A DNA stretch of 64,000 nucleotides from Lentisphaerota bacterium (GTDB lineage: Bacteria > Verrucomicrobiota > Lentisphaeria > Victivallales > Victivallaceae). The stretch is from assembly GCA_015061605.1 (NCBI GenBank), contig SUWH01000002.1, forward strand, positions 62,001 to 126,000. Direction: 5' to 3'. A program made the translations under genes and the position numbers. A model generated the notes under the pieces. The model had not been told where the DNA came from and searched no databases. It saw only the letters and a program-made list of their open reading frames with translations. Below, one piece after another: positions 30,812 to 61,188 of the stretch. Position 1 is the stretch's first letter. Each line of letters begins with the position of its first letter.

Positions 30812-31554
30812 ATGAAATCAGGTAAAGAATTTCACCCGCCGCGGCGGGTGAAGGGGTACCCCTTCACCCGCCGCGGCGGGTGAAGGGGTACCCCTTCACC
30901 CTCATTGAACTGCTCGTTGTTATCGCGATAATAGCCATTCTGGCGGCAATGCTGCTCCCGGCATTACAGAAGGCGCGTATGCGCGGTAATTCAACATCCT
31001 GTGTCAATAATCAGAAACAGATCGGACAGTATGTCGCGTCTTATATGGCGGACTACAATGACATTTTTCCGCGTTATGCGTCTTCATTCAGTGCAATGCT
31101 GGATTATTACTATGCTCTGCCCGGTCTTATTGTCGATTATAATACCAAATATATTTATTCTCCCGTATTCCTGTGCCCGGCAAATATGCCTGATCTTGGC
31201 TGGAGTAAGAGCAACGGCAGATATTACTCCTACTATAAGAAGACCAGTTATGCATGGAATAAAACTTTTTATCAGGGCTCTTCCACCTCTTCAAAGTCAA
31301 CCAAAATAACCAAAATCCGCAAACCGGCATCCAAAGTTATGATGTTTGATGTCGGTAAAGGGCAGGCAAAGGTCGAATTTGACCACGCGGTAGCGGTCAA
31401 TGCGAAATTGAAATATCGTATTCCGGGACCGCATGACCGGATCATCAATGTACTTTTTGTTGCCGGTAATGTCGAAGGCATCCGAGATAATGTCAGAGCA
31501 TTTTTCAGTGAAAATTATGATGAAGCCCGGAAACACTGGGTCTCCACTGATTAA
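30812..31554 (+). pseudogene. Type II pseudopilin, frame broken by a 32-bp duplication
   Basis: The natural start is ATG 30812, with AAAGGA about ten bases upstream. Its frame runs [19 protein letters not shown] and would continue into [14 protein letters not shown] if the 32-bp unit 30831-30862 were present once. It is present twice, so the frame stops at TGA 30881-30883 after 23 codons. That TGA overlaps a GTG at 30880 which opens the pilin frame (225 codons, starting KGYPFTLIE after the initiator). The gene may thus still be expressed by stop-restart coupling, be switched by repeat number, or be dead. The body has the N-terminal pilin helix and the late [12 protein letters not shown], a variant of the H-X9-DG motif of these proteins. 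Confidence 0.75.
30831..30901 (+). repeat. Chain of overlapping perfect palindromes in the pseudopilin leader
   Basis: Tandem 32-bp units at 30831-30862 and 30863-30894, then a 7-base remnant. Each unit contains a 22-bp perfect palindrome centred on CCGCGG (30831-30852, 30863-30884), overlapped by a 24-bp perfect palindrome centred on GGTACC (30846-30869, 30878-30901). The last palindrome ends directly in the codons of the FTLIE motif. Confidence 0.95.
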
Positions 31555-31772
31555 GGTTGCTGCGCAATGTGAAGTTTTTGCCTGTGGCAAAGTGAAACGC
31601 TCGCTTGAGCGAGTAAAGATGTGATAAATTCAAATTCTATATCTTACGGACATCTGCCGCGACAACGGAGCGGCAAAATACCCCGTTTTTTTTGAAAAAG
31701 GATAGGGGGTTCGGGGGGAAGGGAAAAACTTTTTTTCTCGTGAAAAAAAGTTTTTCCCTTCCCCCCGACAAC
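31555..31772. other. Gene-free region with hairpin element
   Basis: No gene is credible here. From the left: a small inverted repeat CTCGCTTGAGCGAG near 31600; then, in minus orientation, the GCGGCAAAATACCCCG motif of the hairpin-associated repeat (about 31650-31710); then the long hairpin 31711-31768, and next to it the terminator of the Gfo/Idh gene. Confidence 0.6.
31711..31768 (-). repeat. Long perfect hairpin, copy 1 (27-bp arms)
   Basis: Arms 31711-31737 and 31742-31768 are exact inverse complements with a 4-base loop TCGT. On the minus strand it lies downstream of the Gfo/Idh oxidoreductase gene. The flank (31650-31710) matches the flank of the second hairpin at 61133-61188 in the same relative orientation. 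Confidence 0.9.
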
Positions 31773-51447: not shown

Positions 51448-54400
51448 TTACTTTTGGCACTTGATGTAACGCTCCGGCTTGAAGTATGCCCCGCCTGCCG
51501 GAGTTCCGGTACAGCCGCGCGCTCCGGCGGCATGGCGGTTGCGGATCACGGTGAAGCCGAAACCGTTTACAGCATTTACATCTTTATACGGTACTTTTAC
51601 ATCCAGTATCCAGCGGTCGGCAAGTTTGGTCGCCTTGACTGAAGTATTGTGCTGCCAAGACCAGTTCCAGCGGCGGCCTTCGCTTTCGCTGGCGCGGATA
51701 TTGCCGTCGGGATCGAATAGATAGTGGTAACACTTTTGCGGATTTTTGCCGTCATCGACAAAGATCTCAATGCAATCTCCACCGTAGACCCCTTTGGAAA
51801 TCTGGAGTGCATCCATGCGCTTTTCCATGCAGGTAACGATGAACCGGGCATGATCACCGCCGTCAAAGACCTTGACGGTGGTCGGATTTTCTTTGTCCGG
51901 CAGTTGCGATGATGAATTTACAAAATGGAACGGTTGTTCCGGAGCATCGGGATCGTATTGAGCCAATTTCCACTTCATTTCACTGGTATATTGTTTGCGT
52001 TCCTTGTAGTTGGCGGTCCAGTAAGTAAACAGAGTGCGGTCGGTTTTTACTCCGGGGTTGGCGGGGGCGAGTTTTTCCGCTTGGGCAAGCTGAATGGAGA
52101 GTTCTTTTTGAATGGCAGGGGTGAAAAGGCCGGTGAAGTTTTCCGGATCTTTCATCATGCATCCATTCATATCCATCATGCCTTTTTCCAGAGTTTTCCA
52201 GTATTTGAACATCACCTTTGCCGCTTTGCCGTAGCGGATGCGGCAGATTTCTGCGAGGATATCATCCGGAGAACCATCGGTACTCCACAAAAGTTTTGCC
52301 GCCAGATAAAAGTTCATCCACTGTGATTCCCAGCTTACGGAGGTGTGAGCCGAAGCTTCGGAAAGCCATCCATCCAGTTTCAGTTTTTTATAGAGCTTGA
52401 AGTCTTCCACCACCGAGCGGAAAAATGGACCGGGCATTCTGCCGATTTTGTATGAAAAATAGTCGTAAATATAGACATGCTCAACTTTACTGCGGATATG
52501 TTTCAAGCGGGCATGATTTTTGGCATTTGACGGACATGCCGGATCGGCGATACCGTGTTTATGGCAGTGAAACTGGGTGACGGAAATAAGCAGATTTTCC
52601 GGAGGGGAGGGGAGGAATTCCATAAAGTCGGAAAAGTTGCTGTAACTGTAATGTCCCAGCATCACGCCGGGAGCTTTTTTATTCATGCGGGCGCAAATAT
52701 CTTTGACGAAATCGGCGACCCGGCGGTTTACCATACCGGTTTTGCGGTCTTCCGGGGTGTCGAGTGCGAGACATTTTTCACATTCGCAATGTCCGTATCC
52801 GTCATTGGGTGGAAAGCCGTAAACGCCGATATGGGGACGTTGTTTGATTTGGGCGAGCAGTTCATTGGCAAACACTTCGCGCATTTCCATATTGGAAAGG
52901 CAAAGCTGACTGCCGATGTGGGTGCGTTTGCCGCCGAGCAATGCGAAAAATTCCGGATTGGACTTGAAATATTTTTCTTTCGGGATGAGCAAGTCATAGG
53001 CGTGGACTGTGGTATCGGGAAGCAAGCCGAGCTCCTGAAGCCGCGCTCCAACGATATCATCTTCCGGCAGATGGGTAAGTTTGCGGTTCATCCGGTTGAA
53101 ACTCATCCAGCGGGCGACACGGTCATCAAAATGATGTTTCCCGGCGCAGATATGGAGACTGCGGTAGGTGAAATCCGGTTTGTGGACTCCGGCAAATTTT
53201 CCGGCATCAAAGCTGATTCCTGTCTGCGGGATCAACGGTTCCTCTGCCGGATTGAGCCAATGGATACCGAGCTTGTTGAGTAAAGTGTAGATACCGCAGC
53301 GCAAAGCTTCATCATCGCCGGTGATGGTGATTTTATCTTTGGCGGGAACATCGACTTGGAATATGCCGTGGTCGCCGATCTTCTTGAGTTTCAAGGTGAC
53401 ATCCAGTTCCGGGAGGAACTGCCCGCATTTGGCGAGCAATCCCTCCGCGGTCTTGAGGGCAGTACTTACCTGAAGTGAACTTTTGTCTCCGGAGAAGTTC
53501 ACTTTACTTTTTTTTTTAGCCTCAAAGGCTGCGGGGTCATAAACTTTTTCCAGTTTTACATCATCAAATGCGGTGTATACTCCTTCGCCCTGACGGGTGA
53601 CACCGTGAATAAGCAGTGCGGTTGCCGGGATATCCGGAGCGCTGAACATGGTACTGACCTGCACCCAGTTGTTTTCACACTCCGGCGGATACTGTACTGA
53701 AACCGAACCGCCCTGATCGAGCCAGCCGCCTTTGCCCTGCATGCGGACGCTGGCGCCGCCGTAACCGAAACCCTCTTCGCCGCGGTTGCGTTTGACATAG
53801 AACGACCATTTGTAACGGCATCCCGGGGTTAGTTTGACATAGCTGATGATGGAACCGCCGATCTGGCGTTCGCCGATGGCACCGGCATGTTTGCCGGAGT
53901 GGACTCCCTCTTTGAGGATGAAAAATTCCGTCTTGCTGTTGGGGAACTTCCAGGTGTGCCAGTAGCTGATGTTTTTGAAGTTGTTGTGGTCGGAGACCAG
54001 ATGTTTGTCCCGGATATTTTTCACATCTTCAAAACCGGGGTTGCGGACGAGGTTGACCGGGGTGTGTTCAAGCATATAAGCCTGGGTGAGCAAGGCAGCT
54101 TTAGCGGCGCGGTGTCTGGTTTTTGCGGCGGCATCACGATAGAACTTGCCGATATTTCTGCCGTTTTTCTTTAAATAGGCTGTGACACGGTCGAGAACCG
54201 GATCGACGCTGCGTTCAAGATAGGATACCGGGTTGAGGGTGGAGATATTTTTGAATTGCTTCACGCCGAATTTTTTCGGATTGATGAAAATATCAGCTTC
54301 TTCGGCGGGGGTGATTTCGTATGCTTTCAAATCAGCGATGGCGCTGTAACCCTGCTCAATAAGTTCAAGAACTTTTTTCACATCTTTATCCGATTTGATT

Positions 54401-57204
54401 TCAGTGATCTTTGCCAGTTCCTGGGCGCAGACCGCATTGACCAGATTGAAGCGGATCAGGGTGTAGATTTTATATACTGCATTGACTTTGCGTTTGGCAT
54501 AGTCGCTTTTGGCAGCTTTGAGAGCGGCATCCATGGCGGCATCAAATTTTTTGATATCGTCAGCGGTGTAGTATTTGTACTGATTGAAGCGATTACGGTT
54601 TTTGATCGGGATGTCAAAATCCGGATCGCGGGCGCAGACAGCTTCAAAGAGGTCAAAGAGGGCTTTGACCTTCATACCGGCTTCGGCGTACATGGAATTG
54701 AAGTAGTCATCGAGCAATGCTTCGATATTGACATCGGGATTCCAGACGATGTTGTCCAATACATACTGGCGGGGGGCGGAGAAGATGAGTGAAGCGGGGA
54801 AATATTCCACCCACATACTTTCCAGATGGTAGTTTTTCATTGCATCTTTCCAGAGTTTACCCATCAATCTGGGGTAGTAGCGCGGAGTGATGAAGCTGCT
54901 GCCGATGGAGTAGATGTAGTCATAAAGTCCGAAATGTTTGGTTCCGACCGCGCGCCAGTCTTTCATTGCGCGGAAAGCACTGATGCCCATCCCGGTAACT
55001 TCGACAAGGACGTTGGGTTCCATTTTTACGCCTTTGGGAACGGCATAACTGCAGCGGCTGTAGGCTATGAACGCCGCGACTTTATCCGGATATTTCTTTG
55101 CCAGAACTTTGGCGGCGGTATTGTAGAAACGGGCATACTGATTGCCGGTGGTTTTGAATTCATAAAGACACTTTTCGCACTGGCAGTCGCCGCCGCCGTC
55201 ATTGACGCCGAGGGGCAGACCGATGCGTTCGGGATGTTTTTTGAAGTATTCGTCAGCATATTCGGCGACCAGTTTCGGCATATCCGGATTGCTGATACAG
55301 GGGTTCCACGGGCCGGAACGTTTTTGGGGATTCATCACTTTGCGTTTGCCGTTGATGACCGGGAAATATTCCGGGTGGGTCTGATAGTATTTTTTGACCG
55401 GAACCAGACTGCTCAAGGCGTGGGTCGCCATGCAGTTGAGGCGGCTGTTGCGCCCGAAAGAACCGTTGGGGGATTTGGCAAGATAATAGCTGTTGAGGGC
55501 GGGTTCTTCTCTGATATCGAGTTTTTCCGGAAGTTCAAGCGAAGCGCGCCGGGGGACGATTTCAAAATAACTGCCCGTACCGAATTGGCGGTATCCGGCG
55601 TAGCGTTTGAGGAAGTCGTTGACCGCAAACATTATCGCGGTATGATTTTTTGCCGTTATGACCAGATTTTTTCCATCGCGGCAAAAGATGAGATAGCCGT
55701 AGGGGTGGAGTTTGGAAAGATCGGGTTTGAGTCCCTTTACATAGGCGGTTTCGCCGATGTGGACGGTGTATTCATCTTTGTTTCCGGTGATGCTGTAAAA
55801 ATTTTTCTGTCCGGTGACGCGCTGCATTATGCCGCGAAAAAATGCGCCTGCAGCGGCATCACCTCCTTTTGCGATGGCAAGATGAAGTTTTCTGCCGTTG
55901 ATCTTCACCGCCTGATTGTTCTGGGGGGCGGGGAAATATTTTTCCATTTCGACCGGATCGAGGAGGATCTCCAGCAGTTTGACCAGAGCTTCGGAATATT
56001 CTTTGTCAAACGGATGAAAACTTGTGAAAACCACCGCGCCTTTGCCGACCCGGTTCACGCCGAGTTCGATGAAGTTTTTGCCGCCGAAAAGCCGGATCAT
56101 GGAGGTGGCTTTATTCAAGCCGGGGTGGTTGCCTTTAGTGCGGGCGTAGACATTGTAAATATCGGTTTTTTCTCCGAAAATTTTGCGGGCGAGTTCGGAG
56201 GGAGCTTCTTTGGTGCGGGAATAGCTGTAAATTGAAGCTCCCAGCACGTCGGCGCCTTTGTCAAGGGTTTTGCCGTCGCTGTAAAGGTTGTTCTGACTTG
56301 CGCCCATGAAGAAAACGATACCGCCGTCTTCAACGAATTTGCGGAGCTTGGAGCGTTCGGCATCGTCGATTTTTTTGCCTTTGTACTTCATGCGGTGGGA
56401 GAAAACCAGTACATCGACCGGTTTGTCCGGCACGACAAGATCGCCCGAATTGCCGCCGTTTTTGACGCTGTTGGCAAAAATCGTGCGGAAAGCGCTGCCG
56501 GTATCGCCGAGGTAAAAGGCGGTTTTGGTAAGTTTTTTCGGAGTGGGGAAATATTTATCCAGCGTTGCCGGATCATTCAACGCTTCCATGAGTTTGATCA
56601 GCGCGGCATCGTAAGCCGGATTTGCACCGGGGGCAAAGGTGGTATATACCAGCGCGCCTTTGCCGACGCGGTTGACACCGAGGACGATACCTTTTTTATC
56701 ACCGAGCAGCCGTACCATTCTGGTAACTTTGCCCATGGCGGGATAGTTGGATTTCTGCCTGGCGACGAATTCAGCTGCTCCGGCGGCGGTATCGCCGAGG
56801 ATGGCTTTGGCGGTATCGGTGGGAGTTCCGGCAAATTTACCGTAGTTGTAGTATTCGGCGCCGAGGATCTCGCTTCCGGAAGCAAGGCTGTATTTTTTGC
56901 CGAACATGATGGCGGGAACCGCGCTGAACATAACGGCAATGCCGCCGTTTTCCAGATAGGCAAGCAGTTTCGCTTTATCGGGGATCGTACCTTTATATTT
57001 ACCCAGCTGTGAAAATACCTGCAAATCAGTTTTTTCATTGAGGGTCAGGGTCGAATTGTCGCCTGATTTGGCATAGATTTTGGAAAATGCCCGGGCAAAT
57101 ACTCCCGTGTAATTGCCGGAATAAAAGGCAGTCTTTGACGGCGCGGCGAATGCGGCAAACGCGCATACTGCCAACAACATTGAAATCATCGATTTAAGTT
57201 TCAT
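51448..57204 (-). CDS. Giant secreted protein with two DUF4838-like modules
   Basis: 1918 residues. Signal peptide (about 20), then two tandem copies (about 22-220 and 230-435) of a module starting KTAFYSGNYTGVF / KTAFYLGDTGSAF and each containing LGVNRVGKGALV or LGVNRVGKGAVV. Next a beta domain (about 440-570), a first DUF4838-like barrel with GGGDCQCEKCLYEF, a carbohydrate-binding-like beta sandwich beginning LVRNPGFEDVKN, a second DUF4838-like barrel with GYGHCECEKCLALD, and a C-terminal CBM9/DOMON domain (last about 190 residues). The paired C-x-C-x-x-C motifs may bind metal. It is presumably a glycan-degrading enzyme outside the cell; activity is unproven. Confidence 0.75.
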   Translation of the reverse strand: MKLKSMISMLLAVCAFAAFAAPSKTAFYSGNYTGVFARAFSKIYAKSGDNSTLTLNEKTDLQVFSQLGKYKGTIPDKAKLLAYLENGGIAVMFSAVPAIMFGKKYSLASGSEILGAEYYNYGKFAGTPTDTAKAILGDTAAGAAEFVARQKSNYPAMGKVTRMVRLLGDKKGIVLGVNRVGKGALVYTTFAPGANPAYDAALIKLMEALNDPATLDKYFPTPKKLTKTAFYLGDTGSAFRTIFANSVKNGGNSGDLVVPDKPVDVLVFSHRMKYKGKKIDDAERSKLRKFVEDGGIVFFMGASQNNLYSDGKTLDKGADVLGASIYSYSRTKEAPSELARKIFGEKTDIYNVYARTKGNHPGLNKATSMIRLFGGKNFIELGVNRVGKGAVVFTSFHPFDKEYSEALVKLLEILLDPVEMEKYFPAPQNNQAVKINGRKLHLAIAKGGDAAAGAFFRGIMQRVTGQKNFYSITGNKDEYTVHIGETAYVKGLKPDLSKLHPYGYLIFCRDGKNLVITAKNHTAIMFAVNDFLKRYAGYRQFGTGSYFEIVPRRASLELPEKLDIREEPALNSYYLAKSPNGSFGRNSRLNCMATHALSSLVPVKKYYQTHPEYFPVINGKRKVMNPQKRSGPWNPCISNPDMPKLVAEYADEYFKKHPERIGLPLGVNDGGGDCQCEKCLYEFKTTGNQYARFYNTAAKVLAKKYPDKVAAFIAYSRCSYAVPKGVKMEPNVLVEVTGMGISAFRAMKDWRAVGTKHFGLYDYIYSIGSSFITPRYYPRLMGKLWKDAMKNYHLESMWVEYFPASLIFSAPRQYVLDNIVWNPDVNIEALLDDYFNSMYAEAGMKVKALFDLFEAVCARDPDFDIPIKNRNRFNQYKYYTADDIKKFDAAMDAALKAAKSDYAKRKVNAVYKIYTLIRFNLVNAVCAQELAKITEIKSDKDVKKVLELIEQGYSAIADLKAYEITPAEEADIFINPKKFGVKQFKNISTLNPVSYLERSVDPVLDRVTAYLKKNGRNIGKFYRDAAAKTRHRAAKAALLTQAYMLEHTPVNLVRNPGFEDVKNIRDKHLVSDHNNFKNISYWHTWKFPNSKTEFFILKEGVHSGKHAGAIGERQIGGSIISYVKLTPGCRYKWSFYVKRNRGEEGFGYGGASVRMQGKGGWLDQGGSVSVQYPPECENNWVQVSTMFSAPDIPATALLIHGVTRQGEGVYTAFDDVKLEKVYDPAAFEAKKKSKVNFSGDKSSLQVSTALKTAEGLLAKCGQFLPELDVTLKLKKIGDHGIFQVDVPAKDKITITGDDEALRCGIYTLLNKLGIHWLNPAEEPLIPQTGISFDAGKFAGVHKPDFTYRSLHICAGKHHFDDRVARWMSFNRMNRKLTHLPEDDIVGARLQELGLLPDTTVHAYDLLIPKEKYFKSNPEFFALLGGKRTHIGSQLCLSNMEMREVFANELLAQIKQRPHIGVYGFPPNDGYGHCECEKCLALDTPEDRKTGMVNRRVADFVKDICARMNKKAPGVMLGHYSYSNFSDFMEFLPSPPENLLISVTQFHCHKHGIADPACPSNAKNHARLKHIRSKVEHVYIYDYFSYKIGRMPGPFFRSVVEDFKLYKKLKLDGWLSEASAHTSVSWESQWMNFYLAAKLLWSTDGSPDDILAEICRIRYGKAAKVMFKYWKTLEKGMMDMNGCMMKDPENFTGLFTPAIQKELSIQLAQAEKLAPANPGVKTDRTLFTYWTANYKERKQYTSEMKWKLAQYDPDAPEQPFHFVNSSSQLPDKENPTTVKVFDGGDHARFIVTCMEKRMDALQISKGVYGGDCIEIFVDDGKNPQKCYHYLFDPDGNIRASESEGRRWNWSWQHNTSVKATKLADRWILDVKVPYKDVNAVNGFGFTVIRNRHAAGARGCTGTPAGGAYFKPERYIKCQK

Positions 57205-57250: not shown

Positions 57251-57973
57251 TTAATCTTTTCCCCAAACCGTTGCGGCACGTTTGGCGTTGGTAATGTCCC
57301 GGTATGGAGATGCATCATGTGCCCATATAGCATTACCGCCAATCAACAGAAAATGGCTGCCTTTCCCATTGTGATATGCGTAACGCAGGGTCGAAAATCC
57401 GTATGTGTAATATTCCGCATTTTCAGCTCCTACGAACGCTGTAGCCCCGGGAGCTACCTGCTGATCAAAAGCCAATATTTTTATGGAAGGATTCTTTATT
57501 TGAGTGACTTTAGGTCTGTGTTTCATTATTGATTTATTGCCCAGCATACTGCAGGTGGTTCCGGACCAACCGTTGTGTGCCGGATCCCGTGAAACAAAGG
57601 GCAGTTTGTATTTCGGACAGTACCATACCGGCGCAAACAGAATATTGTAGGCGGGATACCAGTGTTGAACCAAATACTTGTCAAAACCCTGACGCCAGCC
57701 ATGATAGCCGGTCGGACCTTTGATCTGTCCGTAGTAGGGCGCATTCAACCAGCCATCATAATCATTGTGATACATCCCGGCAGCCACACCGATTTGTCTC
57801 ATATTGTTCAAACAGGCAGTAGAAGTACTGCGCTCCCGGGCTTTTTGCAGTGACGGGAGCAAAATTGCCGCGAGGATGGCGATGATTGCGATGACGACGA
57901 GCAGCTCAATGAGCGTGAAGCTGTACAGCTTCTTCTGGCAATTGCCAGAAGAAAGATCTTTCAATGAACTCAT
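57251..57973 (-). CDS. Type II pseudopilin with palindromic leader
   Basis: 240 residues: 18-residue leader [18 protein letters not shown], then [16 protein letters not shown] and a long helix (LQKARERST). Such proteins are cut by a prepilin peptidase just before Phe and packed into a secretion pseudopilus or act alone. The residue before the cut is Ser, not the usual Gly. The late [17 protein letters not shown] is a degenerate form of the H-X9-DG motif of Lentisphaerae/Planctomycetes pseudopilins. The leader codons consist of overlapping palindromes (57917-57962). It is transcribed into the 1918-residue gene 46 bases downstream. Confidence 0.9.
57917..57962 (-). repeat. Three overlapping perfect palindromes in the pseudopilin leader
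   Basis: 57917-57932 (16 bp, GAAGCTGTACAGCTTC), 57930-57953 (24 bp, centred on CAATTG) and 57951-57962 (12 bp, GAAAGATCTTTC) are all perfect and share their outer three bases. Together they make up codons 4-19, up to the Phe of FTLIE. Confidence 0.95.
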
Positions 57974-61132: not shown

Positions 61133-61188
61133 TTCGGGGAGGGGAAAAACTTCTTTTCACGGGAAAAGAAGTTTTTCCCCTCCCCGAA
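61133..61188 (+). repeat. Long perfect hairpin, copy 2 (26-bp arms)
   Basis: Arms 61133-61158 and 61163-61188 are exact inverse complements with loop ACGG, 11 bases after the yraN stop. It differs from the copy at 31711-31768 by paired changes that keep the stem perfect. It may act as a terminator. Confidence 0.9.

Follow-up and report, generated by a model that had tools for sequence, protein, structure and literature searches.

Why should the leader of a pseudopilin gene be built from perfect palindromes, directly ahead of its prepilin motif? The question is raised by two genes in the 64-kb stretch of DNA that we analyzed as a whole (here, the window). An earlier note on this DNA had described three overlapping perfect palindromes of 16, 24, and 12 bp in the leader of one of them, and rereading the sequence confirmed these at 57917-57962 on the minus strand. 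The palindromes that the note placed before the pilin motif of a second pseudopilin, at 30.8 kb, are also there, and the whole 32-bp palindrome unit is present twice in that gene (Table 1). We refer to the two larger hairpins as X and Y.

Table 1. Positions in the window of the two pseudopilin genes, their palindromes, and the neighboring gene
Feature	Position	Strand	Remarks
Two exact 32-bp X-Y units, 5' of the second pseudopilin	30831..30894	+	
Second pseudopilin, from the FTLIELLV codons to the stop	30895..31554	+	
1918-aa gene with two DUF4838 stretches, directly downstream of the pseudopilin	51448..57204	-	Pilin synteny kept across four related genomes
Pseudopilin gene, 240 aa, with X-Y leader	57251..57973	-	TIGR02532 and N_methyl above cut-offs; DUF1559
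FTLIELLV codons; the motif is the insert target in other genes	57896..57919	-	Inserts sit 3' of the motif at other loci
Hairpin Y, GAAGCTGTACAGCTTC, 16 bp; its 3' arm overlaps the Phe-Thr codons	57917..57932	-	
Hairpin X, 24-bp palindrome, TTCTTCTGGCAATTGCCAGAAGAA	57930..57953	-	
12-bp palindrome overlapping X; no regular module elsewhere, may be incidental	57951..57962	-	

The genome to which the window belongs (2.56 Mb in 52 contigs, 88.7% complete) has 67 matches to TIGR02532, all of which were retrieved, and these gave 69 motif copies, three of them internal. The 60 nt before each motif, together with its first 12 nt, were searched for inverted repeats with arms of at least 9 bases and a loop of at most 4. 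Such arms were present in 41 of the 68 leaders that could be tested (one of the 69 motif copies was left out), compared to means of 0.2 after shuffling of codon order and 2.3 after recoding of the same protein. Among overlapping 72-nt tiles of the 64-kb window, an arm of 9 was reached in 20 of 1,776. The palindromes are thus beyond chance, as the note had held, and the observation it named as able to overturn this, a lack of excess in the other pseudopilins of the genome, is the opposite of what was found. The 41 palindromic leaders include hairpin modules other than X-Y: among 66 full pilins, 30 have an X-Y-like palindrome with an arm of at least 9, 10 the end of a hairpin repeat that we call B, 5 the end of a module C, 1 a borderline case, and 20 none at these thresholds.

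A pattern joining Y to the pilin codons was found in 23 of the 34 genomes of the window's genus, with up to 32 occurrences per genome and none for the reversed control among the matches listed, so that the predicted family of palindromes in the pseudopilins of related genomes does exist. In a survey of 387 genomes of the phylum, the matches listed place the pattern in 29 genomes (8 of 197 genera), with one match for the reversed control; more than two matches per genome were listed only for the window's genus, for g27 (same family), and for g38 (same order). Prepilin motif counts within the genus range from 3 to 150 per genome among the matches listed. On the same basis, the Y pattern was not found in the five genus genomes with 3 to 8 prepilin motifs or in two pilin-rich ones with 107 and 111, and the genome with 150 motifs has a single Y-pattern match.

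The palindromes pointed to a larger system. Upstream of many pilins there are extra copies of FTLIELLV, which are followed by a different peptide instead of the membrane stretch, and this peptide itself ends in the next FTLIELLV. Of the 69 stretches between successive motif copies, which come from loci partly picked by element searches and hence measure frame and not frequency, 68 are in frame and free of stop codons, at lengths of 84 to 291 nt; the one exception, of 142 nt, holds a tandem X-Y copy. (Six of 75 internal copies had been excluded, having no further copy within 420 bp or running off the end of the sequence.) These genes therefore contain inserts of 84 to 291 bp that lie directly after the FTLIELLV codons and end in an FTLIELLV of their own, and the pilin 3' of the last copy is complete. 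The note's suggestion of in-frame palindromic inserts comparable to Rickettsia palindromic elements (RPEs) is supported in this respect. A literature search found no description of the inserts in the limited collection of papers that it covered.

Left ends of the inserts fall into six types, allowing for small variants; right ends are also of several types, and the two are combined in various ways. Seven loci are nested (L008, L014, L062, L085, L136, L163, and L178), and L110 has two separate filled genes. Hairpin repeat B also occurs outside pilin leaders, between or after genes, as at 31656-31765 and about 61135-61186 of the window. A B query gave at least 50 matches in the window's genome; B is therefore a general repeat, which has also come to form the right end in a number of pilin inserts. 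The C inserts (L005, L006, L007, L008, and L010) have an array-like appearance, with several different hairpins separated by GCTTCA spacers.

One family, which we call LE1 (left end KRSHLCCDR), is represented by 29 stretches in a pattern scan of the species genome collection, all from Lentisphaerae/Lentisphaeria metagenome-assembled genomes, and those with a source in their title come from roe deer cecum or sheep colon. All 28 copies with a readable flank sit directly after FTLI[EK]LL[VM]; the 29th shows only 4 flank bases. In the 24 copies with full context, mean pairwise identity is 0.94 for the body and 0.94 for the element's own motif copy, compared to 0.25 for the native leader and 0.46 for the pilin. 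At the right end of the family, X-Y precedes TTCACCTTAATAGAGCTTCTTGT, whose codons specify FTLIELLV. LE1 is thus near-identical in unrelated pilins, such inserts can nest, and X-Y is the right end of the family.

X and Y usually follow the layout D-x-D'-y-D, in which x and y are short cores, D' complements D, and the final D coincides with the beginning of the Phe-Thr-Leu codons of the gene itself. Since X (D-x-D') and Y (D'-y-D) have D' in common, they are mutually exclusive. To quantify the pairing, we began with 265 motif copies, found GTRAA within reach of 101, and counted 81 distinct cases. Merging of identical contexts preceded this count and those of stretches, joints, identities, and stem changes, and loci L068-L097 had been chosen by a Y pattern with the wobble bases left free. 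At the wobble position, D' agrees with the Phe codon in 79 of the 81 cases, where independence would predict 41 (Fisher 1.6e-20); at the following two bases it agrees in 68 and 62. An explanation of the Val-Lys codons (GTR AAG) by the protein alone was rejected, as it leaves the wobble pairing unexplained. Where the Y core has at least 8 nt (65 distinct cases), 56 show three outer complementary pairs but a full palindrome is seen in just 29; the typical Y is therefore a stem whose loop is free, not a perfect palindrome. The note had proposed GAAG-NN-GTAC-NN-CTTC as the form of the last palindrome; this form does precede the motif in the 30.8-kb gene, where GAAG-GG-GTAC-CC-CTTC stands before CACCCTCATTGA, but the GTAC core does not generalize.

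Changes within the hairpins have not broken this pairing. In 28 LE1-type copies, changes per column amount to 0.375 in the X stem, 3.0 in the X loop, and 1.47 in the rest of the body, and in L014, where the motif copy concerned is internal and decayed, three arms have changed jointly from TTCACC to TTCATC. Pairing between the hairpins and the gene's own codons is maintained through changes on both sides. Such joint changes fit arms that template each other in repair, or a hairpin that is needed for movement, and either could be what keeps the arms matched.

From these observations we consider it fairly likely that X-Y is the hairpin module of a system of small mobile inserts, read in frame, whose targets are the pseudopilin genes of a single order of Lentisphaerota. 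The inserts are probably mobile with codon precision and, we infer, tolerated because the leader is cleaved off. Everything upstream of the last FTLIELLV would be leader peptide, to be removed by prepilin peptidase, and insertion would be nearly silent because it would lengthen only this putatively removed part. A recombinase would join the element at the GT of the Val-8 codon, perhaps acting on an intermediate, circular or single-stranded, in which X and Y are folded. Where X-Y stands by itself, as it does in the window's gene, it might be a remnant or a separate product of the insertion process.

How the window's gene fits this proposal can be judged from its relatives. A search with the mature part of its pilin gave one match in each of four related genomes, at 44 to 56% identity, and because the 1918-aa DUF4838 gene follows downstream in each, we take the four to be orthologs; the gene upstream is not shared. 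One syntenic ortholog (L223) has an empty leader, MKKR-FTLIE, with no X-Y. Two others (L221 and L222) have an X-Y of other sequence and then a further stretch, and the fourth (L224) has two nested inserts. Judging from leaders that are empty, filled with X-Y plus a stretch, or doubly filled, X-Y is a changeable feature. The window's own X-Y is likely descended from an insert; against this, the gene has no internal FTLIELLV copy, so that its X-Y is tied to the inserts only by architecture. Alternatively, leaders with X-Y only, such as the window's, could hold palindromes made in place by template switching between arms, with the inserts having captured one as their right end. From gene to gene and from ortholog to ortholog the layout is constant but the X cores are not, the three arms of L014 changed in concert, and genes with X-Y alone lack an internal motif copy, all of which would suit an origin in place. 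X-Y nevertheless sits in inserts that move as a whole, and L223 is entirely without it. We regard an origin in place as conceivable but somewhat less than evenly probable.

The serious rival to mobile inserts is ordinary homologous recombination or gene conversion among pilin paralogs, with the FTLIELLV codons as the pivot and no dedicated element. Up to 150 motif copies per genome (among the matches listed) would provide partners, and the varied pairing of left and right ends is consistent with it. Right joints within the motif occur at a few loci (L016, L053, L214, and L217), and these count against mobile inserts because plain recombination would yield them. The common stretch is only about 24 bp, however, and the first motif copies are only 80% identical to one another; the second copies mostly retain the element's own motif to its end. 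The third base of Val-8 is A or G in 64 of 69 internal copies but in only 65 of 198 pilin copies; by this measure the left joint follows the GT in nearly all inserts. In addition, a shorter cousin of the LE1 inserts, present in the window's genome (L026) and in one from a different family of the order (L231), is identical at 57 of 60 positions between the two, and the two pilins give only short, weak matches beyond residue 40; such identity across bacterial families speaks against recombination among paralogs. On balance, we find this rival rather unlikely.

The duplicated unit of the 30.8-kb gene raises a different possibility, namely, that tandem X-Y duplication is a phase-variation switch. 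In this assembly the frame of the motif is not that of the upstream ATG with a ribosome site (30812). Of 191 leaders, 11 carry an exact repeat of the X-Y unit, with unit lengths of 34, 31, and 32 bp, and all 11 follow one rule: two copies put the ATG that has a ribosome site out of frame, whereas a single copy would leave it in frame. Moreover, a pair of pilins from two genomes, 95% identical, differ in having one X-Y copy and two. Against a switch, 10 of the 11 exact tandems come from the window's single assembly, the exact tandems show only two-copy states, several tandem leaders are near contig ends, and an artefact of assembly or library is possible. At L029 (G000:C21:1592-1760), L034, L048, and L054, X-Y palindromes have a contig end or a stretch of N nearby, which indicates that assembly has trouble there. 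The frame-shifting tandem is either a phase switch or an assembly artefact, and we are doubtful of the former.

It is improbable, in our estimate, that X and Y are conserved mRNA hairpins that control translation just after the start codon as a mutually exclusive, switch-like pair. The shared D' would permit such a switch, the stems vary less than the loop, and the leader RNAs fold more stably than shuffles (z = -2.34 over 92 nt and -3.31 over 47 nt for the window's gene; z = -8.79 for the 30.8-kb gene). Yet 20 of the 66 full pilins have no such palindrome and 15 have other modules, the ortholog L223 has none, and pairing is kept even in L014, at its decayed internal motif copy. A known structured RNA or intron was rejected as well: Rfam searches of 10 loci gave 12 matches with E values up to 1, all below the gathering score.

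What might move the inserts? The note had suggested a search for a linked REP-type (IS200-like) transposase, and such a link is not supported. The Y1_Tnp profile has no match in the window's genome; it matches in 11 of the 34 genus genomes and is absent from 16 of the 23 palindrome-bearing ones (among the matches listed). At 13 loci around all 12 Y1 matches there were no element-like ends, and the sole pilin motif there belongs to an ordinary pilin gene. With the enzyme missing from the element's own genome and no such ends at Y1 loci, we rejected it as the mobilizer. An IS110-type mobilizer (DEDD/Transposase_20) was set aside; across the 34 genus genomes, Transposase_20 matched in 1, the window's own. 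That no mobilizing enzyme was found among those searched (Y1 and Transposase_20) counts against mobile inserts, as do the pilin-rich genus genomes without the Y pattern. Viral carriage of LE1 was rejected on finding no match in viral contigs, and translational bypassing is unneeded for inserts that are in frame and open.

The proposed tolerance depends on prepilin peptidase (Peptidase_A24), which has one match in the window's genome and one to three in 32 of the 34 genus genomes. Glycine is the usual residue directly before a prepilin cleavage site, and Cys, Arg, Ser, or His there is unusual for prepilins. Position -1 before FTLIE is Gly in only 4 of the 69 motif copies of the window's genome, with Cys, Arg, Ser, and His commonest. 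The scarcity of Gly counts against the proposal, and cleavage of these leaders is at present a prediction. More tentatively, and with a confidence just short of even, we propose that these are selfish elements, read in frame, for which a protein-processing site serves as a safe harbor: their target would be a single codon within the prepilin motif, they would bring along the motif in a copy of their own and be edited out of the protein by prepilin peptidase, and their hairpins, kept complementary to the target codons, would guide or enable insertion. If true, a mobile element would escape selection by landing upstream of a leader-peptide cleavage site and rebuilding it, not by RNA or protein splicing. 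This would explain the odd long pilin leaders in these gut bacteria and offer a natural experiment on what prepilin peptidase accepts. It would also raise the question of which activity places 108 bp at one codon of dozens of genes.

Several known systems resemble these inserts in part. IS200/IS605-type elements have hairpins near their ends and an end resembling the target, and need no target duplication; the pilin inserts likewise have hairpins near their ends and a target-like end but no linked Y1 transposase. Islands and phages that integrate in tRNA genes bring with them whatever portion of the target the gene needs to stay intact. The pilin inserts differ from these in being 84 to 291 bp long, without an integrase, in many copies per genome, and in restoring a protein motif in frame. 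The Piv invertase of Moraxella and IS110 provides a precedent for DNA rearrangement in a pilin coding sequence, whereas Transposase_20 is confined here to the one genome in 34. REP/BIME sequences, in the part of the literature drawn on here (PMC3733652), are short hairpins in inverted and tandem arrangement with RAYT transposases. Compared with that partial account, our hairpins are alike in size and arrangement, but X-Y as a rule has no GTAG tag and sits inside genes at one site, and Y1 is absent or unlinked.

RPEs, as the excerpted accounts describe them, are short palindromic elements read in frame in protein genes, with an unknown transposase, and are reported in many unrelated genes, intergenic space, and RNA genes (PMC2229807, PMC10969869). 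They are about 105 to 150 bp long with a long stem-loop; the pilin inserts span 84 to 291 bp and do have hairpins, which are of different kinds. Relative to those excerpts, the pilin inserts are confined to a single codon in one protein family and bring a copy of their target; every readable LE1 copy is in a pilin motif and not in many unrelated genes, and hairpin B alone is widespread. Within what these sources describe, RPEs are the nearest known kind, and single-codon targeting, the carried motif, and probable removal with the leader set the pilin inserts apart.
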